Origin: Archaeoglobales archaeon
Lineage (GTDB): Archaea; Halobacteriota; Archaeoglobi; Archaeoglobales; Archaeoglobaceae
Direction of reading: 5' to 3'
Assembly: GCA_003662995.1 (NCBI GenBank)
Contig: QMZC01000013.1
Coordinates: forward strand, 1 to 37,077
DNA: 37,077 nt
Made by a program: the position numbers and the translations under genes
Shown here: one piece after another, positions 7,403-37,007 of the stretch
Layout: each line of letters starts with the position of its first letter
Numbering within the stretch: the stretch's first letter is position 1
Notes under the pieces: model-generated
What the model was told of the DNA's origin: nothing
Database searches by the model: none
What the model saw: the letters and a program-made list of their open reading frames with translations, nothing else

Positions 7403-7786
7403 ATGGAGTTCAAGGTTGTAATCTCTGATCCAAATACAGGAAGGGCTTATCAGAAGGTTATTAGTGGAGCCAATGCAAACAGGCTGATAGGAAAGCAGGT
7501 TGGAGATATAATCAATGGTACACTCGTTGAATTGCCTCCAGACTACGAGCTTCAGATTACTGGGGGGAGCGATAAGGACGGTTTTCCAATCAGACCCGAC
7601 ATACCTGGGGCTGTAAGAAAGAGAATTCTCGTTTCTGGAGGGGTGGGCTACAGACCTAAGAGAAAGGGAATGAGAAAGAGGAAGACTGTGAGAGGAAGGG
7701 TTATTTCAAGGGATATAGTGCAAATTAACGTAAAAGTTGTCAAACATGGAAAAGTGCCGTTGGATGAGTACTTTAAGAGTGGGTAA
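7403..7786 (+). CDS. rps6e: Small ribosomal subunit protein S6e
   Basis: 127-residue archaeal S6e, the short form lacking the eukaryotic phosphorylated tail. Seen: MEFKVVISDPNTGRAYQKV at the start, the TGGSDKDGFPIRPDIPG core (about 54-70), and the basic RPKRKGMRKRKTVRG segment. In many Euryarchaeota the gene is followed by aIF2-gamma; here it is followed instead by a methyltransferase 26 bases downstream. Confidence 0.96.
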   Translation: MEFKVVISDPNTGRAYQKVISGANANRLIGKQVGDIINGTLVELPPDYELQITGGSDKDGFPIRPDIPGAVRKRILVSGGVGYRPKRKGMRKRKTVRGRVISRDIVQINVKVVKHGKVPLDEYFKSG

Positions 7787-7812
7787 GAGTTGATAATTTT
7801 GTATAACCGGTT

Positions 7813-8430
7813 ATGGGTATTTTAGAGGATAAAAAGAGAGCGAGAATTTTTTATCGCTACTTTTCGAAAGTTTACGACAAAATTAACCCAATCTTTTATT
7901 CCGACGAGATGCGTAAGACCGTTGTTGATATGGCGGAACTTGATGATAACAGTTTTGTTTTGGAGGTGGGATGCGGGACTGGATTTACTACTGCTGAGAT
8001 TGTCAACAGAGTAGGGGAATGTAACGTCGTTGCTTTGGACCTAACTCCAGAGCAGATGGCTAAAGCCGTTTATAGATTTCCAGATGTCAAATTTGTTAGG
8101 GGTGATGCAGAGAATTTACCCTTCAAAAATGATTGTTTTGATGCTGCCATTTCGGCTGGAAGCATAGAGTATTGGCCAAACCCATTGGAAGGAGTTAAAG
8201 AGATGGTAAGAGTTACTAAAAGCGGTGGTAAAGTTGTAGTTTTAGCACCCAGAAAACCTGATAACTTTGTTGTCAGAAAGTTTGCCGAAAGTATCATGTT
8301 GTTTCCGTCAACTCAACAGTGCGTCTCTTGGTTTTTAAAGGCTGGCTTGGAGGATGTTAATTTTGTTGAAATGGGTCCGTATTTCTTGTGGAGTAAGCTT
8401 GTGGTGATAATTTCGGGGAGGGTTCCATAA
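7813..8430 (+). CDS. SAM-dependent methyltransferase (UbiE/MPBQ-like)
   Basis: 205-residue class I methyltransferase. Seen: LEVGCGTGFTTAEI (motif I, about 50-63), VALDLTPEQM (about 75-84), RGDAENLPFKNDCFDAAIS (about 96-114) and GGKVVVLAPR. The N-terminal RARIFYRYFSKVYDKINPIFY segment resembles quinone-ring methyltransferases of the UbiE/VTE3 type, so a role in menaquinone-type quinone synthesis is plausible for an Archaeoglobales member, but this is inference. The start follows a 10-base palindrome TAACCGGTTA and lacks a Shine-Dalgarno. It could be cotranscribed with rps6e. Confidence 0.8.
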   Translation: MGILEDKKRARIFYRYFSKVYDKINPIFYSDEMRKTVVDMAELDDNSFVLEVGCGTGFTTAEIVNRVGECNVVALDLTPEQMAKAVYRFPDVKFVRGDAENLPFKNDCFDAAISAGSIEYWPNPLEGVKEMVRVTKSGGKVVVLAPRKPDNFVVRKFAESIMLFPSTQQCVSWFLKAGLEDVNFVEMGPYFLWSKLVVIISGRVP

Positions 8431-9036
8431 TCATAGGAGTGCTTTTCCAGTAGGATGTAGTATATGACATCGATACAGTATTCGTTTTGTAAACCATCTT
8501 CAATTGAAGATAATATCGTAATATTACTCTAAAATAGCACTTGAGCTTTTTCATTAAGAAACCAAAAGAAGTCAAAATAAGTGACAAAACGGGAGGAAAT
8601 TACACCGTTCATGGTGTGTTTAATTTGTATTATGTTGCAATAAAATTTGGAAATTAGGCTTACACATTTCCACATACCAAATGAAGAGATATGCTATAAT
8701 TAAAGATTGGGTAGCCAATAGGCGGGCTTATGAAAGGTTTTAATGAATAAATGAATAGGTACGGAATCAAAACCAATTGTTAGAAAAACAAAATTTCCAA
8801 AAAGGGAAAAAGTCTTTTTTATAGCGTAAAGTCTCGTTTACACGACACAAACGCCAAAAGAACTCTCACCCCTTACACGGATTGGGAAGATAGTATCAAC
8901 CGATCCTTGGTAAATACGCAATTTTTTACTTCTTCAAAAATGTAGCCTCGAGTTAATTTGGGATAAGACAATCTTTTTGCATCAGAATTAAGGATAAATT
9001 CAACATTGTTTTAAAACATTACACAGACCAATAAAC
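8431..9036. other. Gene-poor spacer with a probable decayed coding remnant
   Basis: About 600 bases without an intact gene. On the plus strand 8543-8647 reads KKPKEVKISDKTGG then NYTVHGVFNLYYVAIKFG before a stop, and after a shift of frame 8646-8747 reads KLGLHISTYQMKRYAI then KDWVANRRAYERF before TAA. The two pieces join naturally, so a gene with one frameshift or a truncated relic is likely; no family is recognised. The rest (8750-9036) shows no tRNA, repeat array or clear RNA gene. Confidence 0.35.
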
Positions 9037-9906
9037 ATGTTCAAAAATGAATACGAGTCGGCTATAGCAGCAGTTCAATCAATGTTGTTGGAAGTGTCGG
9101 GCAATCCAAAAGCCGGAAATGTGGACAGAGAGCACGACTTTGAAGATTTAAAATATGAACATTTCATCGTTTCATCAGTTTCATCTTTTCCTATTTTTCT
9201 CAATGCCACATTTAAAAGGGATAGCATTGGAAAATTGATACTTGAAGCAGTAAAAACAACATCTGAGTGGCACAAAGCAACGAATGTACATTTTGGGGCA
9301 TTTTTGTTACTCATTCCTTTGCTTACAGTTTGGAATTCCAAAAACATTGTAGAGATGGCTGAAAGAGCCACAGATGAATTAAAGAAAACAACACATCAGG
9401 ATTCAATTGCGATATTCAGAGCATTTAAGCTTTCTTCTGCAAGGGTATTGGATGTGGAAGATTTAAGTTTGGAATCGAATAAAACGGAGGAGTACTTGGC
9501 ATCGAACAACATAAACGTTTATGAATGGATGAAGTTAGCTCCTAAGGAGAATTTAATTGCCAAGGAGCTCATCAATTCGTATAGGATTAGTTTGAAGGGG
9601 TGTGAAATGTTGTTGAATTTTTTTGAGGAATTTAACGATGTTAATGTGGCGGTTGTGTTGTGTTATCACACTTTACTTTCCGAATACTTAGACCCGCTCA
9701 TCATATCCAAAAGCAAGATTGATGTGGCAGAACTGGTTAGAAATGACGCAAAATCCTGTTTGGAAGAGTTTGAAAAAGAGCAAAATGTTCAGGTGTTTAA
9801 AAGACTTGATGAAGAATTGATTCGTAAAAAGTTAAATCCAGGAACGATAGCAGACCTGACAATATCTTCAATCTACTTCGCATTAGCAGAGGGGTGGAGG
9901 TTTTGA
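9037..9906 (+). CDS. CitG/MdcB-family (triphosphoribosyl-dephospho-CoA synthase-like) protein
   Basis: 289 residues. Seen: LLEVSGNPKAGNVDREHDFEDLKYEHF (about 18-43), the archaeal form of the CitG-family signature, a hydrophobic helical core with HFGAFLLLIPLL, and the C-terminal NPGTIADLTISSIYFALAEGWRF. Bacterial CitG makes the prosthetic group of citrate or malonate lyase, but no lyase genes are near, so the true substrate is probably different. It overlaps the DUF447 gene by 13 bases; this pair recurs in organisms that use tetrahydromethanopterin, suggesting a cofactor role (inference). No Shine-Dalgarno is clear before the ATG. Confidence 0.82.
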   Translation: MFKNEYESAIAAVQSMLLEVSGNPKAGNVDREHDFEDLKYEHFIVSSVSSFPIFLNATFKRDSIGKLILEAVKTTSEWHKATNVHFGAFLLLIPLLTVWNSKNIVEMAERATDELKKTTHQDSIAIFRAFKLSSARVLDVEDLSLESNKTEEYLASNNINVYEWMKLAPKENLIAKELINSYRISLKGCEMLLNFFEEFNDVNVAVVLCYHTLLSEYLDPLIISKSKIDVAELVRNDAKSCLEEFEKEQNVQVFKRLDEELIRKKLNPGTIADLTISSIYFALAEGWRF

Positions 9907-10463
9907 GGCTGGCTGATTTTGGGTTTAGTAAAGGGATAAACGAAATTATAGCTGTAACAGTGGGAAAAAAGTTGAATACTGCTCCAATAGGAATAATAGT
10001 TGAGGATGAAAATTCAATTTTTGCTATGGCAAAGCTGTATCCTTCCGAGACTAAGGAAAATGTTAAGGTTAGTGGCAAATTGTGGGCTAATGTTGTCTTA
10101 GACCCAATCGTTTTCACAATTTCCGCATTTGAAGATTTGAGTGATGAGTACTTTATCCCAGGCAAGCCTGCGTTAAAAAATGCAATGGCTTACTGCGAGT
10201 TTGATGTTAAACTTGATAACTCAAAGGCTCATTTAAGATTAGTCAGTGGTGAGGTTCTTGATTGTAGAATAAGAGCGGTTAACAGGGGATTTAACGTTTT
10301 GATAGAGGCTCTGGTTCACGCCACCAGATACAAAATTGTGCGTGGCGAGACTAAAAGAAAACTAAGGGAGATGATTTTATATTATAAAGAAATAGTTGAC
10401 AAATGTGGCAGTGAGAGAGAGAAAGAGGCGTTTGATTTGCTATTGAAGTATGTTGGTTTGTAG
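9894..10463 (+). CDS. DUF447 family protein (FMN-binding split-barrel type)
   Basis: 189 residues, matching the DUF447 family of archaea and methylotrophs: an N-terminal barrel-like region (INEIIAVTVGKKLNTAPIGIIVEDENSIFAM), a middle with AMAYCEFDV, and a C-terminal helical part containing NRGFNVLIEALVHATRY and a KRKLREMILYYKEIV helix. Starts at GTG 9894 or at TTG 9903; both overlap the CitG-like gene, so the two are coupled. Function is unknown experimentally to my knowledge; a flavin-linked step in a C1-carrier cofactor pathway is a reasonable guess. It converges with rrp42. Confidence 0.82.
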   Translation: MEVLRLADFGFSKGINEIIAVTVGKKLNTAPIGIIVEDENSIFAMAKLYPSETKENVKVSGKLWANVVLDPIVFTISAFEDLSDEYFIPGKPALKNAMAYCEFDVKLDNSKAHLRLVSGEVLDCRIRAVNRGFNVLIEALVHATRYKIVRGETKRKLREMILYYKEIVDKCGSEREKEAFDLLLKYVGL

Positions 10464-29437: not shown

Positions 29438-30454
29438 ATGGAAGTTTCGATACTTGGTGCAGGGGCGATGGGTTCTGCTTTGGCTATACCGCTCCACGAT
29501 AATGGAGTGGAGATTAAGCTTTGGGGGACGGAATACGATGCTGAAATATTAAAAATAATTGAAAGAGGGGAGAAACATCCAAGAATTGGTGTACCTCTGC
29601 CAGACATTAAAATTTATTATCCAGAACAGTTGGATGAGGTTTTAGATTCAGACCTAATACTGCTTGCAGTGAGTACTGAAGGGGTTTTTCCTGTTTTTAA
29701 CAAAATCAAAGACAAAGTTGGGGATTCAATTTTGGTGACGATTTCTAAGGGGCTTTTGGAGTACGATAATGAGATCATGACGATTCCTGAAACCCTTTGG
29801 TCAATAAATCCTGACTTGAAAGAAAGAATCGTAGCCATTACAGGACCCTCTATTGCAAGGGAGGTGGCAAACAAAATGCCCACAAAGGTTGTGTTTAGCA
29901 GTATCGGCAAATCTGCTAAAGAAGCATCCAAGTATTTTGAAACCGACTACTATCACATTGAGGTGTCCAACGATATTATTGGAGCTGAAATAACTGCTGC
30001 ATTGAAAAACGTTTATTCAATCGCGATTGCATGGATTAGGGGTTACGAGCAGTTGGTAGATGTGGAAATGAGCAATGCCAAAGGTGTTATGGCGACGATG
30101 GCTATAAACGAGATTGCAAGGTTTGTTGAGGCTGCTGGAGGTAGGAAGGAAACTGTTTTCGGATTTTCAGGATTTGGTGATCTAATTGCCACATTTAGAG
30201 GTGGGAGGAACGGAATGCTTGGAGAGTTGCTTGGTAGAGGGTTAAGCGTGGATGAGGCATTAAATGAATTAAAACTAAGGGGAGTTGGTGTTGTTGAGGG
30301 ATTCGGTAATGCAAAGAGGGCGTACAGATTGCTGAAGCAGTTGGAAGAGCACGACTCTGTATCTTTGGATGATTTTCCACTGTTTATGAATCTCTACAGT
30401 GTGCTTTATGAAGGCAAGGCTGTCAAAGATGCGTTAAAAGAGGTGTTTAGTTAA
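29438..30454 (+). CDS. gpsA: NAD(P)-dependent glycerol-3-phosphate dehydrogenase (GpsA-like)
   Basis: 338 residues. Seen: N-terminal Rossmann motif VSILGAGAMGSALAIPL (about 3-19), KGLLE and GPSIAREVANKMPT (about 137-150), AALKNVYSIAIAW with the catalytic Lys (near 193), and GFGDLIATFRGGRN (the family C-terminal substrate motif). The enzyme interconverts DHAP and sn-glycerol-3-phosphate. Archaeal ether lipids use the opposite stereoisomer, so here a catabolic or osmolyte/phosphodiester role is likely; a homologue is known in Archaeoglobus fulgidus. This is the last clearly core gene before the accessory island. Confidence 0.92.
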   Translation: MEVSILGAGAMGSALAIPLHDNGVEIKLWGTEYDAEILKIIERGEKHPRIGVPLPDIKIYYPEQLDEVLDSDLILLAVSTEGVFPVFNKIKDKVGDSILVTISKGLLEYDNEIMTIPETLWSINPDLKERIVAITGPSIAREVANKMPTKVVFSSIGKSAKEASKYFETDYYHIEVSNDIIGAEITAALKNVYSIAIAWIRGYEQLVDVEMSNAKGVMATMAINEIARFVEAAGGRKETVFGFSGFGDLIATFRGGRNGMLGELLGRGLSVDEALNELKLRGVGVVEGFGNAKRAYRLLKQLEEHDSVSLDDFPLFMNLYSVLYEGKAVKDALKEVFS

Positions 30455-30587
30455 AAGCGGACTCGGCGTCTATTGTACTTACAGCTTAAAACACTTAGAG
30501 ATTCCTTAAAATTTTCATTTTGGAAGTAAATTAAAACTGCTACAATTGTTGGAATGAGTAGGAGAGAGATGTTTTTAATTTCATCCC

Positions 30588-31010
30588 TCATTCTCTCAAA
30601 TACTGTCCTGAAACCGCGATAAACCGCTTAGGTTTAATTGGTTTATCGTATTTTCTAATATCTTCAAGCTCAATAGCCATCCAGAGCTTCTTCTTTTCTT
30701 TACCCCTACTTCTAATTCCTTTCCATCTTTCTTGGGATTTTATGTATTCTTTAAGCTCTTCTTTAGTTAAGAAGATTCTATCACCAAAAGTATCGAAGAA
30801 CTGCATTGGATTTTCAGACAAGATAACCCTTTTAATCTTCGCCTCTCCAACAAAGCCTGTATCTTCTCTCGATTGATAGAAAACGAATTTCATACCCGGC
30901 TTTAAATATTTCCAGACTGTTGCTGGCTTTACAAACACATTTTTGCCTTTGAAAAATCTATTCATAAACTGTTTTGGGATTGGGTATGTTACCCCAATTA
31001 TTTCAGACAT
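30588..31010 (-). CDS. DUF365 family protein (PUA/ASCH-like fold)
   Basis: 140 residues. Seen: EIIGVTYPIPKQFMNRFFKGKNVFVKPATVWKYLKPGMKFVFYQSREDTGFVGEAKIKRVIL, the DUF365 signature, with the strand pattern of a PUA-like/ASCH nucleic-acid binding domain, then a helical stretch and a C-terminal strand. Function unknown. GGTG lies six bases before the ATG. It is the third gene of a minus-strand operon with the EVE protein and a nuclease, starting 20 bases after the nuclease gene, so it probably works with them. Confidence 0.78.
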   Translation of the reverse strand: MSEIIGVTYPIPKQFMNRFFKGKNVFVKPATVWKYLKPGMKFVFYQSREDTGFVGEAKIKRVILSENPMQFFDTFGDRIFLTKEELKEYIKSQERWKGIRSRGKEKKKLWMAIELEDIRKYDKPIKPKRFIAVSGQYLRE

Positions 31011-31030
31011 TTAAAACACCTCAGATTGAT

Positions 31031-31735
31031 TTACACTCCGAGAGCTGGACTTCTTAATATTTCTAATTTTCCATTATCGTCGATAAAATATATTTCGATA
31101 TCACCAAGCCAAGGACCATATTGCTTTGCATACCTCTCGAAAGTGTTCCTGTTGCCTAATCCAACGATGAATTTCCTCCACTTCCTACCGCTCGATTGTT
31201 CAAGCTTCTCCATCAGCCAGATGTATTCCGATATCGCACTGAACTGTGCTGCCGGAACTGCCCCCTTGAAGGTGTAGTATTTCACATCTCCTACAATAGC
31301 TTTCTCCAGATTAACGAGATCGAATTCTTTGTATTTACCAAAAATGTTCACCTTTCTATTTTCGAGCTTCACATTCAAGTATTTTTCCATAACCTTTTTT
31401 GCTATTTTCTCAGGATTGAAATCATCTGGCTTTTCTGTTTTTTCTTCTTTGAGTTTTTCGCCATGCTCGGCGAGCTTAAACTTGCCACCTTTAAGATCGA
31501 TTAGAAAGGCTCGTCTGTACAGAGTTGGATGAGAATTTGCGGCACTTTTGTTGTTTATCGAAAGAGCCCATAAGTGCAGTTCAATAGTATCATCCTTATG
31601 TGGAGCATCGGGATACTTACTTCGGATGTAGCTTAAAACATCCAAGTATGTGAAAGTATTGCCGCGTCTCCCAAGTTCGTATGCTGCTTCCTTAACGAGT
31701 TCATAAGCGATCTTCCTATAAATTGGAGAGGACAA
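31031..31735 (-). CDS. Predicted PD-(D/E)XK nuclease with N-terminal winged-helix-like domain
   Basis: 234 residues, TTG start (31735). The Shine-Dalgarno GGAGG of this gene lies inside the end of the EVE gene, whose stop is 3 bases upstream. N-terminal part (about 1-90), with NTFTYLDVLSYIRSKYP and NNKSAANSHPTLYRRAFLIDL, looks like a winged-helix DNA-reading domain. C-terminal part (about 110-234) has FDLVN with D139 and GDVKYY with D150 and K152, the D-x10-DxK arrangement of restriction-like nucleases, followed by a helix with QFSAISEYIWLMEKL. Likely the effector of a DNA-targeting system. No known restriction enzyme is clearly recognised. Confidence 0.7.
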   Translation of the reverse strand: MSSPIYRKIAYELVKEAAYELGRRGNTFTYLDVLSYIRSKYPDAPHKDDTIELHLWALSINNKSAANSHPTLYRRAFLIDLKGGKFKLAEHGEKLKEEKTEKPDDFNPEKIAKKVMEKYLNVKLENRKVNIFGKYKEFDLVNLEKAIVGDVKYYTFKGAVPAAQFSAISEYIWLMEKLEQSSGRKWRKFIVGLGNRNTFERYAKQYGPWLGDIEIYFIDDNGKLEILRSPALGV

Positions 31736-31738
31736 AAA

Positions 31739-32185
31739 TCAACCCTCCATAGATTTCACAATCACCCTGTAATCCTCCTCAGGAATCTCCCTCATCGCCT
31801 TCCCCATCAAATGCCCTGACCATTTTCGCTTGTTCGTGATGAACTTCAGCTTCGGAATCAAAGGTTTAAACTCAACAGGTTTGGAGAATATTTTGATGGG
31901 TTTGAGCTTTATGCGGAGTGGGAACGTTTCATTACTCATCCTTTTTGGAGTTTTGAAAATTCTCGATGAATCCCTGAACACTTCCGATGCTGCTTCATAA
32001 ACTGCTACAATTCTCGATGGTCTAATCTCTCCATCCACGTTTTCCTGCTTGAGGTAAATCAAAAGCTTATCTCCGGGTTTTACCCTCACTATGGTGTTCT
32101 TGTGCCTTTCTGGTACGCCCCAGATGTTCTTCTGCTTGGTTACTTTCCAGTTATCTTCGTTGGTTATGCAGAGCCAGTAAACCAT
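31739..32185 (-). CDS. EVE domain protein
   Basis: 148 residues of the EVE (UPF0310-like, PUA-superfamily) fold. Seen: [46 protein letters not shown] (about 3-48), with the WGV and GD turn typical of EVE, then [16 protein letters not shown] and a C-terminal [16 protein letters not shown] with the family's final helix. EVE domains bind modified bases and are often fused to or encoded beside restriction nucleases. A perfect GGTGAT lies three bases upstream of the ATG. First gene of the EVE-nuclease-DUF365 operon and divergent from hsdM. Confidence 0.85.
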
Positions 32186-32188
32186 AGA

Positions 32189-32194
32189 ATCACC
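32189..32194 (-). promoter_or_regulatory. Shine-Dalgarno of the EVE gene
   Basis: GGTGAT on the minus strand with 3-base spacing to the ATG at 32185; a strong match to the archaeal 16S tail, implying this operon is well translated. Confidence 0.55.
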
Positions 32195-32265
32195 ATTGAC
32201 TAATCAAATAGAAAATATTTAAATGTTTGTCATTGAATAATGTAAAAGATTATTCTGGTGGAAGT

Positions 32266-33153
32266 ATGCAGGAAAAGCTAACAGATTATGCTGAAATTGA
32301 GATTTCGAGGGATGAGATTGACAGAGCATTGAAAAGAGCAGCAGATTTGATAAGAACGCGTGTTGATTACAAGTACATTCTAATCCTTTTGTTCTTGAAA
32401 AGATTGAGCGATGAGTGGAAAATCGAATATAAGAATGCTGTCGTTAAACTGATGCAAGAGGGGTTGGGGGAAGAGGGGGCTAAAGAGCTGGCTAAAGATC
32501 AATCCTTTAACAGATTTAATTACCCAGAAAAGTACACTTGGGATAAGCTCAGAGAGAACATAAACGAATTGCCTATAAAACTTTCAGAAGCTTTGAAGTT
32601 GATTGCAGAGAAAAATCCTGAGTTGCTGGGCGTTGTTGATAGGCTCGATTTTCTGGAGTTTACAAGGCATAAGGAGAATTTTGAGATATTGAAACAATTA
32701 TTTGAGTTGTTTAGCGGCTTACAATTGGGAAATGCATCTCCAGACGTTTTAGGAGATTCTTATGAGTGGATTTTGAGATATTTCGCCCCTCAAAAGGCTA
32801 AGGAGGGAGAAGTTTATACACCAAGGGAGGTTGTAAGGTTATTGGTTGAACTACTAAATCCCCAGCCAAAAGATGAGGTTTACGATCCAGCAGTTGGTTC
32901 TGGAGGTATGTTAATAGCATCCTATTACCATGTTAAAGAAAGATAGGGTGAGGAGGGTGCTAAGAAGCTCTTTCTTTATGGTCAAGAGGTTAATGCAACA
33001 ACTTTCGCAATTGCAAGGATGAATGCGATAATTCATGGTATTAGAGATGTTGAGCTTGCTGTTGGAGATACTTTACTAAGCCCGAAGTTTAAGGAAGGTG
33101 ATAGCTTTAAACAATTCAACATAGCAATAGCAAATCCACCTCCAAAAACAGGA
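32266..33153 (+). pseudogene. hsdM: Type I restriction-modification DNA methylase subunit HsdM, broken and truncated
   Basis: From ATG 32266 (GGTGG four bases upstream) the frame reads an HsdM N-terminal helical domain (RAADLIRTRVDYKYILILLFLKRLSDEW) and the start of the methylase domain (EVYTPREVVRLLVELL and DPAVGSGGML, SAM motif I). A TAG at 32944-32946 interrupts, but the same frame continues through GEEGAKKLFLYGQEVN, DTLLSP and NIAIANPP, the NPP catalytic motif at about 33133-33141. There the family sequence ends: the target-recognition and C-terminal parts are missing, and the frame runs straight into a HepT remnant. HsdS and HsdR are not in the window. Confidence 0.88.
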
Positions 33154-33373
33154 CTAAGGGTGCCTGAAGACTATGCAGACACTTTTAGAGTTGTATGAGA
33201 CAAATTTCTTTGATGAAGAATTTACTGAAAGGCTTGAGATGATGGCGAGGTTTAGGAACAGGCTTGTCCACATCTATTGGGATGTTGATGATGAAGTTGT
33301 TTATCAGATACTGCAAAAGGATATTGAGGATCTGGAATTGTTCTTGCAGAAATTTATGGATAAGCTAAGATAA
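33151..33373 (+). pseudogene. HepT (HEPN, DUF86) toxin C-terminal remnant
   Basis: GLRVPEDYADTFRV at 33151-33192 is in the hsdM frame, then a frame change (apparently two lost bases near 33190) leads to LYETNFFDEEFTERLE and MARFRNRLVHIYWDVDDEVVYQIL, ending at 33373. This contains RNRLVHIYW, the R-x4-6-H-x-Y catalytic motif of HepT RNase toxins of the MNT-HEPN modules. The first half of HepT and the MNT antitoxin are missing. It is a relic created when a deletion joined hsdM to hepT. Confidence 0.8.
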
Positions 33374-33537
33374 GCTTTATTTTACATCGAACTTTGGTGG
33401 CAAATTAATATTAAATGGGTAAGAAGAGAAGTTCGAAACACTTTTTATTGAGGATTAGATTGAAAAATGATTCGCTTCTTAATCTCAATTTTTAAAAACT
33501 ACGTCAAATTAAATGTAGATTTTAGCAATAAAAACCC

Positions 33538-33573
33538 ATAAATTTAAAAGCATACAAATATATATTTGGTGGT
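33538..33573 (+). promoter_or_regulatory. Promoter and Shine-Dalgarno of the virus-like structural gene
   Basis: TAAATTTAAAAG at about 33538-33550 and a second AT-rich CAAATATATATTT (about 33555-33567) are TATA-like. GGTGGT at 33568-33573 is a Shine-Dalgarno five bases before ATG 33579. Confidence 0.45.
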
Positions 33574-33578
33574 AGAAA

Positions 33579-33848
33579 ATGGTTAAAGTAACTAATGTAT
33601 TTGGTGATGAGTATTCAGGAAAGGTAGGAAATTCAGGCGTATTCGCAAAGTGGAAAGGTAGACAGTACAGAAGGAAGTACGTAATTCCAGCTAACCCAAG
33701 AACACCTAAGCAGCAAGAAGTAAGAAGTTCATTTGATAATGCTGTACAGTTGTGGAAGGAGTTTTTACAGCCAATGAAGAAGAACTACAACTTCTTAGCT
33801 GTACCAAAGCAGATTAGTGGCTTTAACATGTGGGTTTCCAGATACTAA
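33579..33848 (+). CDS. Virus/prophage-like structural protein, first segment (in-frame TAA ends it)
   Basis: 89 residues with basic, aromatic content: GKVGNSGVFAKWKGRQYRRKYVIP then ANPRTPKQQEVRSSFDNAVQLWKEFLQPMKKNYNF. The GKxGNxxFxKWKGxxxxRxYVxPxNPxTPxQ pattern is common in phage and virus structural proteins. It ends FNMWVSRY-TAA, but the same frame continues at once with SLVTKGLPAPQLPKIGF through 34190. No Shine-Dalgarno precedes the second part. So this is likely one gene cut by a nonsense codon, or a readthrough product. Confidence 0.6.
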   Translation: MVKVTNVFGDEYSGKVGNSGVFAKWKGRQYRRKYVIPANPRTPKQQEVRSSFDNAVQLWKEFLQPMKKNYNFLAVPKQISGFNMWVSRY

Positions 33849-33851
33849 AGC

Positions 33852-34190
33852 TTGGTAACTAAGGGATTACCAGCCCCACAGCTACCAAAGATTGGATTTA
33901 AGCAGATTTGCTCAGGAACAACGGATGTTAGCGATGAGGCAATTCCAAATGGAAATGGTCCACACACCTTAGCAAACAACCCAGTTAAGTTAGCTTCACT
34001 AACTTACACACCTGGCTCAGGAGATCCAACAATTGATTTCATTGTTGAAGTTGATAGAGGAGTTGTTAGAGTTTTAGCAGCAAAAACTGGAATTCTAAAA
34101 ATTGACTACACGGCTTTGGGAAGAGAAGTTACAGGAGAAGAGTTAGCAACAGATCCAGAGGCTAACACAGAATACAGAGTGAAATATTGA
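33852..34190 (+). CDS. Virus-like structural protein, second segment (same frame, between TAA and TGA)
   Basis: 112 codons open from TTG 33852 in the same frame as the first segment. Reads LVTKGLPAPQLPKIGFKQI and a beta-rich region with TYTPGSGDPTIDFIVEVDRGVVRVLA, ending with EANTEYRVKY before TGA (34188-34190). A TTG start with no Shine-Dalgarno is poor, so separate translation is doubtful. Content suggests capsid or tail beta domains; no closer family is recognised. Confidence 0.5.
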   Translation: MVTKGLPAPQLPKIGFKQICSGTTDVSDEAIPNGNGPHTLANNPVKLASLTYTPGSGDPTIDFIVEVDRGVVRVLAAKTGILKIDYTALGREVTGEELATDPEANTEYRVKY

Positions 34191-34199
34191 CCAATCGAT

Positions 34200-34556
34200 T
34201 TGCAGTCTGTCAAGATTTACATTGACACTACAGAACAAGATGCTATAGAAGTTGATTTGAGAAATGGGAAGGTTTACTTCACAAAAACAGCCCCATCTTC
34301 AGGTTCAGCAGCAGTTAGCTATTCATACCTAAACACACCGATTGAGGATGCTAAGTGTGAAATAAGGAAGGCTGGCTCTTCATTCTTGACATTCAGGGAG
34401 TACAGCAATGAAGATGGATCATTAATCTTGGCACAAACAGTTGAGGATCAAAACTACGACATGACAATTGAGGCTGCAGGCTACGCATCTTACATTGTGG
34501 CAAACAAGTCAGCAGTTGACGTTGTGAAAGACGTTTGCATTGTAATGTCCACGTAA
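34200..34556 (+). CDS. Virus-like structural protein, third segment (same frame, after TGA)
   Basis: 118 codons from TTG 34200, again in the same frame. SVKIYIDTTEQDAIEVDLRNGKVYFT then APSSGSAAVSYSYLN is a typical repeat unit of virion and adhesin beta domains and follows naturally from EYRVKY in the second segment, across the TGA. The rest, CEIRKAGSSFLTFREYSNEDGS and YDMTIEAAGYASYIV, resembles a carboxypeptidase-regulatory-like domain. Ends at TAA 34554-34556. No Shine-Dalgarno. Confidence 0.5.
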   Translation: MQSVKIYIDTTEQDAIEVDLRNGKVYFTKTAPSSGSAAVSYSYLNTPIEDAKCEIRKAGSSFLTFREYSNEDGSLILAQTVEDQNYDMTIEAAGYASYIVANKSAVDVVKDVCIVMST

Positions 34557-34652
34557 GCAGCTCCAAACCAAGTGTTAACGAATTAAAACCCTCCAATTTT
34601 TTGGTAATTAGCAGCTAAACTCAAATTCCACACAAATTAGAAACAAAAAAGC

Positions 34653-34896
34653 ATGAACTTGGATTCAACTACTCTGCAGCTAATCTTGAATTTGATAATC
34701 TATCTAATAACTGTAATCTACTTCTTCGCTTCCTTAAAAGTTAAGGTTGATGTTTTAATCAAAGAGTTTTCAGAAGTTAAATTCAAACTGCATAGACATA
34801 GCATCAATTACCGCAAAGCTTGAGCAGATTGAGAGGAAAATAGAAAGGATTTGCAATCTGATTGATGAAAGTCTATACAGAAAGAACGGTAGATGA
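34653..34896 (+). pseudogene. Small membrane plus coiled-coil protein, frameshifted (XhlA-like type)
   Basis: From ATG 34653: MNLDSTTLQLILNLIIYLIT followed by VIYFFASLKVKVDVLIKEFS is one membrane helix and the start of a coiled coil, ending at TGA 34821-34823 after a frame change around 34785-34790. One base shifted, the natural continuation is IDIASITAKLEQIERKIERI then CNLIDESLYRKNGR, ending at 34896. Such short helix-plus-coil proteins occur in viral tail/lysis modules. Not known whether the shift is a mutation or recoding. It overlaps the start of the next gene (34865). Confidence 0.55.
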
Positions 34897-35980
34897 AGAC
34901 TATTCTGCCTACAAACATCAGGATAAATCGGGAAGACGATTTTTTGTAAGAAGGAGAATTAAGCCAGATAGAGTAGGTAAACGAAGCAACTTAACTCAAG
35001 ACTTGGCTGTTAAGGAAGCTCATCGCTTAGCCTTAGAAAAATGGAAAGATTACGACATCTATGCACAATCAACTTTCAAACTTATGAAGGTGAAATCACC
35101 GTTAACAGGAAAAGTTCTTTCAGGCTATCAGTTGGCAGTAGCAATAAACAAGTGGTTGATTGAGAGAGGTAAAGGTTCTTTAGATGAATGGTATCTTGCT
35201 GCATTCAAGCTGTTAGATTCTAACAACAATCCAATAATAAATGCAAATGTAAACATCTACTCAACTTTAGCACAACAATGGTACAATTTAACTCTAAAAT
35301 CAGATGAATTTGGTTGCATAGGACCGTTTGCGATCTTCCCAAAACTTGACAATTATGTAATTGAGATAGAATATGAAAACAATGGAACAAAGAAGGTTGT
35401 AATTTCAACTTTAAAGAGAACAAAATTTGGTGATGAAGAGATTCCGATTAAACGATTCTTATTCACAACTCATTGCAAAGATGAATACGATCTAAAGAAG
35501 GCTATAAGCGGAATTGCAGGTTGCCATCCAAATCAAGTTACGATATGGCAGGATGCATGCAACGAATTCAACAGGTTTTACTTTGTGAGGTATAGAAGTT
35601 ATACTTACTACGGATGGACGTACAGATTTGATGTTAACTACTGGCTCGGATGCACATCAGCAACCGTTTCACAAGGAAGAGTTGTTTTAGCAACGAGGTT
35701 GGATGATGAAGGATTTAATTGTGGAGAAGGAGTTTTGTTTGCGAGGATTAGCTGGATGGCAACGTGGGGTTATTGGTATTCTGAGACAAGACAAAGGATG
35801 TACAATGCTGAATTTGCCTTCTATGATGTAGATTACTTGCAAATGCCATTAAACAAACGTTACTACTTTCCAGAAGCTGGAAGCAAAATTTTACCACCGT
35901 ATCAACTAAATGCAAAGCTTATCAGCAAAATAAGCAGTATAACTCTTGCAGATGAAGACTATTCGATAGAATTGAGATGA
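34865..35980 (+). CDS. Large virus-like structural protein of unknown family
   Basis: 371 residues, start ATG 34865, mixed Tyr/Trp-rich. N-terminal region: HQDKSGRRFFVRRRIKPDRVGKRSNLTQ, reminiscent of the KWKGRQYRRKYVIPANPRTP pattern in the 33579 segment, so perhaps the same module. Then KLLDSNNNPIINANVNIYS (a carboxypeptidase-regulatory-like beta domain, about 115-170), and a C-terminal domain rich in Tyr/Trp/Arg (about 205-370) with FVRYRSYTYYGWTYRFDVNYWLG and four or more Cys. The latter could be a receptor or surface binding part. No catalytic motif is visible. The frame remains open for 14 codons past its TGA. Confidence 0.65.
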   Translation: MKVYTERTVDEDYSAYKHQDKSGRRFFVRRRIKPDRVGKRSNLTQDLAVKEAHRLALEKWKDYDIYAQSTFKLMKVKSPLTGKVLSGYQLAVAINKWLIERGKGSLDEWYLAAFKLLDSNNNPIINANVNIYSTLAQQWYNLTLKSDEFGCIGPFAIFPKLDNYVIEIEYENNGTKKVVISTLKRTKFGDEEIPIKRFLFTTHCKDEYDLKKAISGIAGCHPNQVTIWQDACNEFNRFYFVRYRSYTYYGWTYRFDVNYWLGCTSATVSQGRVVLATRLDDEGFNCGEGVLFARISWMATWGYWYSETRQRMYNAEFAFYDVDYLQMPLNKRYYFPEAGSKILPPYQLNAKLISKISSITLADEDYSIELR

Positions 35981-36026
35981 TACAAAAATTACAGCGAGCT
36001 AATTGCGGGATGTTGTTGTAAATAAC

Positions 36027-36137
36027 ATGTACAACATGCAAGCTGATTGCATGCTAAAAAGCCTAATCAACAACAAATCAACCGAGCTAATTGCAAGTGG
36101 TAAAGCTATTCATCAAAAAACCCATGCTTGTTGCTAA
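36027..36137 (+). CDS. Short open frame between the structural gene and the nuclease-like gene
   Basis: 36 codons: MYNMQADCMLKSLINNKSTEL then IASGKAIHQKTHACC. No Shine-Dalgarno and no family recognised. It contains a perfect inverted repeat (CATGCAA at 36035-36041 and TTGCATG at 36047-36053). It may be a chance frame or a small viral protein; the same CGAGCTAATTGC sequence occurs at 35995-36006 and 36083-36094. Confidence 0.25.
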   Translation: MYNMQADCMLKSLINNKSTELIASGKAIHQKTHACC

Positions 36138-36147
36138 AGTTAGTTTA

Positions 36148-36639
36148 ATGGAAAAAAACATGCCTAGAAAGTGGTATTCTGTAAAAGAATTAGAAAATCA
36201 ACTGATAATTGAAACGAGAAACCACACTATTACGATAAGAAGGGATGATGAAAGTATAGAAATTAAAAACAAAAGGTTGTTCTCCCACTCAATTCACAAC
36301 AGCATGCTGATAAGCTATGTTAATAAGCTTAGAAAGAGAGGAATAATTCGTTTAAATGCAGATTGCTCAGCAATTAAAGGAAGGGATAAATCAATTCCTC
36401 TGTTGTTCAACAATAAAAGGGCAGATGTTGTTTATTATGAGGATAACAAGTTGTGTATTGCTGAAATAAAGAACTGTCATGAGATTGGGTTAGAGAGAAC
36501 AGCACAACAGCTAAAAGAGTATGTTAAACATGCTGATAAAGTGATGTTAGTTGTGCCAAAAAAATGCGTAAACGATGCAAGGGATTTGCTGATTATTTTG
36601 GGCTTGCAAACCAAAGTTGAGGTTGATACGTACGACTAA
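36148..36639 (+). CDS. Predicted PD-(D/E)XK-type nuclease, viral or element-encoded
   Basis: 163 residues from ATG 36148 (an in-frame TTG at 36091 would add 19). N-terminal part with WYSVKELENQLIIETRNHTI. A C-terminal alpha/beta domain has RADVVYYEDNKLCIAEIKN: D93, E106 and K108, the D-x(n)-ExK pattern of Hjc/VRR or restriction-like nucleases, then HEIGLERTAQQLKEYVKHADKVMLVVP, where the Gln and helix fit the usual core. No close family is recognised. It may be a replication, recombination or host-defence nuclease of the element. Confidence 0.6.
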   Translation: MEKNMPRKWYSVKELENQLIIETRNHTITIRRDDESIEIKNKRLFSHSIHNSMLISYVNKLRKRGIIRLNADCSAIKGRDKSIPLLFNNKRADVVYYEDNKLCIAEIKNCHEIGLERTAQQLKEYVKHADKVMLVVPKKCVNDARDLLIILGLQTKVEVDTYD

Positions 36640-36666
36640 TAAGAAAACTCAACAATCAAACTAATT

Positions 36667-37007
36667 ATGCCAGCATGGCTATTAATTGAAATAGCGTGGG
36701 AGCTTGTTAGCGATGCAAGAACTGTATGCTCCAACATTATGTTTCTTTACGAAGAGGCAATGCAGATATGCAATTTTGCAATCTACTTAGCCTTAAACAA
36801 CAAAGACTACTTAGCTGTCAAAAAATTGTGAGCTATCTAAACGAAACTTTGTTGCCAGAAGCTGAAGAATTCGCTATGCTTTGGGGTTACATTGCATATC
36901 CCGTTAACATTACGTTTGAGGCATTCTACCAAGCAGAGAGGAAGTTTGTGGATACAATGTTGTTAATTCTTAAAGGCAAAGAAGGAGAAGTGGAAGAAAC
37001 AACATAA
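36667..37007 (+). pseudogene. Hypothetical protein with a -1 frameshift at an A6 run
   Basis: From ATG 36667: MPAWLLIEIAWELVSDARTV then CSNIMFLYEEAMQICNFAIY, LALNNKDYLAVKKL, stop at 36829-36831. Reading -1 at the A6 run (36820-36825) continues as IVSYLNETLLPEAEEFAMLWG and YIAYPVNITFEAFYQAERKF to TAA at 37007, giving about 113 residues. An all-helical protein of no known family. Could be a slippery-site product, an indel, or a read error in a homopolymer. Nothing further is recognisable after 37007. Confidence 0.5.

Follow-up and report, generated by a model that had tools for sequence, protein, structure and literature searches.

A chromosomal EVE–DUF365 gene frame with a variable central slot in Archaeoglobales: a candidate modification-sensing defence cassette

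EVE domains read modified bases and guide restriction (PMC7641849), and nucleases joined to winged-helix (wH) or PUA domains are modification-dependent enzymes (PMC11037411; PMC10101028). The closest described relatives of the locus analysed here are archaeal systems in which a standalone EVE protein, often together with an ASCH protein, is encoded beside type I restriction-modification (RM) and DUF499 systems (Bell, Wolf and Koonin 2020, PMC7641849). Common to these systems and our locus are a standalone EVE protein, a second PUA-like protein, a setting in archaeal restriction loci and modified DNA as the predicted target; they differ in that an EVE–effector–DUF365 frame with an exchangeable slot is not described in the main text of that paper, which mentions neither DUF365, HicA nor DUF262. 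As the DUF365 structure 2KKU is ASCH-like, the ASCH protein of these authors may in part be DUF365.

Several other systems invite comparison. GmrSD-family type IV restriction (GmrSD, BrxU) is represented by a GmrSD_N protein in the same slot of one related locus (L051), and EVE–GmrSD fusions are known (PMC7641849), whereas the effector at our locus belongs to an unnamed PD-(D/E)XK family. The wH-fusion nucleases (DpnI-type PD-(D/E)XK-wH and PUA-wH-HNH; PMC11037411) likewise combine a small DNA-binding-type domain and a nuclease with PUA-like readers, but our locus encodes its PUA-like readers in genes of their own, and its N-terminal domain, DUF7669, a putative wH, lies ahead of the nuclease domain. 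HicAB toxin-antitoxin pairs are found in the slot of sister cassettes, including two from the genome of our locus, but are absent from the locus itself, where the nuclease stands instead; a survey of HicA contexts (PMC10865869) makes no mention of EVE, PUA or ASCH. BREX genes adjoin relatives of the nuclease (brxB in L006, L007 and L083) and some EVE/DUF365 pairs (brxL in L121 and L131), whereas no brx or pgl core gene was recognised at our locus, where proteins were scanned over 30588–37007 and the part to the left was covered from open reading frames (ORFs) only. No literature linking the EVE domain with DUF365 was found, and text matches to 'duf365' were unrelated by title. EVE-guided restriction is already described; the EVE–DUF365 frame with exchangeable effectors is, as far as we searched, new. 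We suggest, with a probability of roughly 45%, that it is a modification-sensing defence cassette in which the EVE/DUF365 frame would sense modified nucleic acid and license an exchangeable effector.

Gene organisation and the two PUA-like proteins

The host is a relative of Archaeoglobus, and the window, by which we mean the whole 37,077-nt stretch of DNA that was analysed, is an entire contig of its 2.6 Mb draft genome. The features are given below.

30451..30591, minus strand: rhomboid-like stump of 46 codons, overlapping the DUF365 stop by ATGA
30588..31010, minus strand: DUF365 protein, 140 aa, ATG start; PUA/ASCH-like fold; proposed second reader
31031..31735, minus strand: nuclease with DUF7669 and PD-(D/E)XK domains, 234 aa, TTG start; proposed effector
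31739..32185, minus strand: EVE domain protein, 148 aa, ATG start; PRK00809 subfamily; proposed reader of modified bases
32186..32230, minus strand: putative operon leader 5' of the EVE ATG, with a GGTGAT ribosome site and TTTAAATA (TATA-like), as read from the sequence
32227..33195, plus strand: remnant of hsdM (type I methylase), transcribed away from the operon; its HsdM_N and N6_Mtase matches fall into two pieces

The preliminary description had reported three minus-strand genes packed with 3- and 20-base gaps behind a GGTGAT ribosome site, and this layout was recovered in full: all three ORFs were found in place and on that strand, the EVE/nuclease gap is 3 bases and the nuclease/DUF365 gap 20 bases, and GGTGAT precedes the EVE ATG. 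Ribosome-site-like sequences resembling GGAGG and GAGGTG are also visible by eye before the nuclease and DUF365 starts. The operon contains EVE, nuclease and DUF365 only, with no cognate methyltransferase inside it, the adjoining hsdM being broken.

The outer two proteins had been described as being of PUA type, and this assignment held for both. The EVE protein matches Pfam PF01878 over residues 2–143 (86.6 bits against a cut-off of 23; 2.1e-24) and NCBIfam NF002008 (5e-65), and has solved relatives in 2P5D and PH1033/1WMM (PDB). The DUF365 protein covers the profile of PF04033 in full (153.2 bits, cut-off 25.9; 2.5e-45), keeps the conserved columns of its family and matches PDB entry 2KKU (A. 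fulgidus AF_2351) at 5.9e-73, a structure placed near ASCH and EVE folds in a Dali table (PMC6803910). A direct hhalign comparison of EVE with DUF365 gave E 3e-4 at a low probability of 41%. The sole match in PADLOC 2.0.0 was a weak one (1.9e-5) of DUF365 to the candidate family PDC-M11B, beyond which NCBIfam and PADLOC offered no name for either the nuclease or DUF365.

The three genes had also been said to adjoin a broken type I restriction locus, which our analysis bore out. The hsdM gene has an in-frame stop at 32944–32946, and its N6_Mtase match breaks off near position 134 of 311, the C-terminal part being missing; over 32227–33370 (plus strand) the remnant runs into the C-terminal half of a HepT-like RNase gene, so that two decayed defence genes meet here. 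Further along the plus strand, the short ORFs that fill 33579–37007, with TTG or ATG starts, have almost no Pfam matches beyond one weak DUF6266 match and one weak HSDR_N-like match with a possible nuclease motif (36091–36639); a mobile or viral element may thus occupy this end of the contig.

The middle nuclease and its relatives

The middle protein carries a DUF7669 match at residues 12–87 (38.4 bits; Pfam cut-off 23) and, C-terminally at about residues 106–230, a PD-(D/E)XK domain with D139, D150 and K152. These three residues, already singled out in the preliminary description, proved to be correctly placed, and they are invariant in 21 of 21 aligned bacterial and archaeal homologues, a set that spans Chloroflexi, Proteobacteria and Acidobacteria as well as several groups of archaea. 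In the AlphaFold2 model they sit on predicted strands 134–142 and 147–154 of a core whose element order, alpha-beta-beta-beta-alpha-beta, is that of PD-(D/E)XK enzymes, and pLDDT is mostly above 90 in this C-terminal domain; the N-terminal domain is poorly modelled at low confidence, and 'winged-helix-like' is a putative label for it, based on the DUF7669 match and that model. Foldseek matches to PD-(D/E)XK enzymes are individually weak (best E 8e-3, none below 1e-3), with several members recurring; they include what we take to be BstEII, PspGI, McrBC, DdmD and AF1548. The nuclease domain matched no Pfam family and no PADLOC model (0 of 21 family members match PADLOC), and a PDB sequence search with the nuclease gave no useful match. 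Motif and predicted topology together support a PD-(D/E)XK-type nuclease.

Across the 21 homologues the C-terminal domain is common and the N-terminal domains vary, being DUF7662 in 6 of the 21, DUF7669 in the window copy and weak wH-type matches in others; in all frames scanned, DUF7669 itself occurred as a fusion with a domain of PD-(D/E)XK type. Two relatives outside this set (L009 and L010) have a degenerate motif, with VGYAQ in place of VGDxK, and are probably inactive, given the loss of the motif in their sequences. In three genomes of another family (L141–L143), a DUF7669 nuclease gene is immediately preceded by a gene whose product has an EVE-like C-terminus; the upstream protein has 380 aa, with a REase-like N-terminal and an EVE-like C-terminal part, its EVE match appears in L141 alone of the three and falls under the Pfam cut-off, and its gene is complete in L142 but seems to be disrupted in L141 and L143.

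The three genes had been proposed as a unit that ought to co-occur in other genomes. That proposal did not survive: no second EVE–nuclease–DUF365 trio was found among 11 matches in the phylum, 25 genome contigs and one viral contig, and we reject the trio as a conserved three-gene system, the window being the one place where we found it. The closest relative of the nuclease, at 64% identity (genome G057), is encoded by a gene that overlaps an unrelated gene, and in that genome no DUF365 was found and no EVE appeared among the matches listed. Over the 25 contigs, EVE lies near a nuclease relative in L082 only, 734 bp off with one gene between, and none of the 23 genomes with nuclease relatives has DUF365. 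No nuclease relative was found on plasmids. The other relatives are orphans or members of BREX loci, in which the nuclease lies directly upstream of brxB in L006, L007 and L083. Relatives adjoining brxB or other BREX-like genes (L006, L007, L083, L085 and L086) come from Methanosarcinales-like archaea, most with a DUF7662 N domain; in L006 and L008 Pfam confirmed BrxB and not BrxA. The nuclease beside BREX genes is possibly an accessory BREX nuclease. As no second trio was found and the relatives occur in varied settings, we regard the nuclease as an independent effector of several contexts, and its membership in the cassette rests on the single locus in the window.

The EVE–DUF365 frame and its slot

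In the phylum, 43 of 340 genomes carry DUF365 and at least 89 of 335 carry EVE. Once split matches had been merged by hand, DUF365 occupied 58 places, and at no fewer than 28 of these (at least 28/58) EVE lies within 3 kb, where uniform placement predicts about 0.3; a chance neighbourhood is rejected on these numbers. The 28 pairs listed span at least 21 genomes, 10 genera and 6 families, and all are on the same strand, with EVE upstream in 26 (the window and 25 others) and downstream in 2, one of the latter (L122) having an MNT/HEPN pair between. By the distance between domain matches, 12 of the 28 are directly adjacent and leave the slot empty, which means that the frame can do without a slot gene; 14 have intervening sequence with EVE upstream. 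The conserved unit is thus the EVE–DUF365 pair with a variable gene between. No DUF365 was found in 194 genomes of the phylum to which a Methanomassiliicoccales locus (L065, genome G348) belongs, and a viral origin of DUF365 is unsupported, as no relative was found in viral contigs and phage records.

The contents of the slot are as follows.

HicA and HicB: six loci of the Archaeoglobales family, including two from the window's genome; HicA is broken in L055
HicB with no recognisable HicA: three loci, of which L118 also holds fragments of another gene
GmrSD_N protein: L051 (EVE 7640–8080, GmrSD 8081–9772, DUF365 9778–10206)
NucS_C/DUF5655 nuclease: L121, in a more distant family
Antisense UDG-like gene: L119
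No recognisable gene: L120
DUF7669 and PD-(D/E)XK nuclease: the window

Within the family, intact EVE copies are 73–86% and DUF365 copies 78–91% identical to those of the window, and the middle gene is unrelated. The start of the slot is tied to the EVE stop: HicA overlaps it by 4 nt in four loci (L043, L047, L054 and L117), GmrSD starts directly at it with zero gap (L051), and the window nuclease starts 3 nt after it. A NucS-like nuclease also lies 3' of DUF365 in L128 and L055. In two Archaeoglobales-family loci (L004/L082 and L055), a cysteine-rich protein with no Pfam match is encoded directly upstream of EVE.

The frequency of HicAB in this slot, including the two copies in the window's own genome, suggests another reading, in which EVE and DUF365 would play a toxin-antitoxin-like RNA role, binding modified RNA or regulating the operon, with HicAB as the ancestral effector and the nuclease as a substitute toxin. 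The MNT/HEPN pair between DUF365 and EVE in L122 would fit such a role, as would the frequent binding of RNA by PUA-like folds (PMC6803910). The window slot protein, however, is of PD-(D/E)XK type with no recognisable antitoxin adjoining, and the GmrSD and NucS-like slot proteins would, by family precedent, act on DNA; we consider an RNA role unlikely.

Sister cassettes place the window in a family context. The same genome carries two more EVE–HicA–HicB–DUF365 cassettes (L042 and L043, on contigs C52 and C97), in which EVE is truncated or split and HicAB and DUF365 look intact. A gene for a rhomboid-like membrane protease (PF01694) lies 3' of DUF365 in six loci (L047, L049, L051, L052, L053 and L117), with a rhomboid/DUF365 ATGA overlap in L049 and L051. 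The window stump occupies the position of this intact gene with the same ATGA overlap, and it is 40% identical to the L052 rhomboid over 30 aa (blastp 1e-5, phmmer 2e-4, in a small local set). From the similar EVE and DUF365, the slot at the EVE stop, the sister HicAB cassettes and the rhomboid stump, the window looks like the same cassette with the nuclease in the place of HicAB and the rhomboid gene cut off. One may also postulate a decaying defence island in which the three genes are leftovers that no longer cooperate: hsdM, HepT and rhomboid are all broken in the window, and EVE is damaged in both sister cassettes of the genome. The EVE, nuclease and DUF365 of the window are nevertheless full-length with their conserved residues intact, and we find decay of the trio itself very improbable.

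The wider neighbours of EVE/DUF365 pairs include Eco57I/MmeI-type methylases, SNF2 or NOV_C helicases, an HsdR-like protein and a DNA methylase with a ResIII-type helicase. Outside the phylum, plasmids of M. jannaschii and T. profundus carry DUF365 next to genes for an N6-methylase and a helicase. These surroundings bear on the main rival to our reading, namely that EVE and DUF365 serve a large neighbouring RM system as accessory readers (here the type I system, reduced to a broken hsdM) and that the nuclease, a restriction enzyme unrelated to them, was inserted between the two and works alone, finding its target through its own N domain. Many EVE–DUF365 pairs are indeed slotless yet beside RM genes, relatives of the nuclease (that of G057 included) are orphans or BREX neighbours away from EVE and DUF365, standalone EVE has already been tied to type I RM (PMC7641849), and wH-bearing nucleases can sense methylation alone (PMC11037411). 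Such an insertion must nonetheless be reconciled with a nuclease lying exactly in the slot at operon spacing, and with slot genes elsewhere that are also nucleases or toxins. We regard this rival as a serious contender, if a somewhat doubtful one.

Possible function of the cassette

Our preferred reading remains a chromosomal cassette in which two PUA-like proteins frame an exchangeable nuclease or toxin. We count in its favour that EVE lies within 3 kb of at least 28 of the 58 DUF365 places, on the same strand throughout and upstream in 26, against about 0.3 expected; that the recognisable slot contents include nucleases and toxins (HicAB, GmrSD_N, NucS_C/DUF5655 and the window nuclease); that the two frame proteins remain alike from locus to locus as the slot varies; that the slot start is aligned with the EVE stop; that the catalytic triad is invariant; that RM, helicase and BREX genes are neighbours; that an EVE-like gene lies upstream of a DUF7669 nuclease in L141–L143; and that EVE and wH/PUA-nuclease precedents exist (PMC7641849, PMC11037411). 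Counted against it are the single occurrence of the trio, the G057 genome and its lack of an EVE or DUF365 match, the 23 genomes that have nuclease relatives and lack DUF365, and the 12 slotless pairs.

In this cassette EVE, and probably DUF365 too, would recognise foreign nucleic acid by binding its modified bases, and the bound readers would recruit or license the effector, presumably by physical interaction. The effector would then cut through a metal-dependent site formed by D139, D150 and K152, which would amount to modification-dependent (type IV-like) restriction with a presumed antiviral role; that modified DNA would be the substrate is suggested by analogy with the families concerned. 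More tentatively, one fixed two-reader recognition module (EVE and DUF365, often with a membrane rhomboid protease) might in some genomes drive DNases (GmrSD, NucS-like, PD-(D/E)XK) and in others an RNase toxin (HicA).

The DUF365 family, found mainly in archaea, is uncharacterised but for a solved structure (2KKU). Its strong and oriented linkage to EVE and to restriction and BREX genes gives it a testable role, which we found nowhere described, as a defence-associated reader and partner of EVE. As the proteins are small, some of their relatives have been solved and the lineage is heat-loving, this idea is directly testable.
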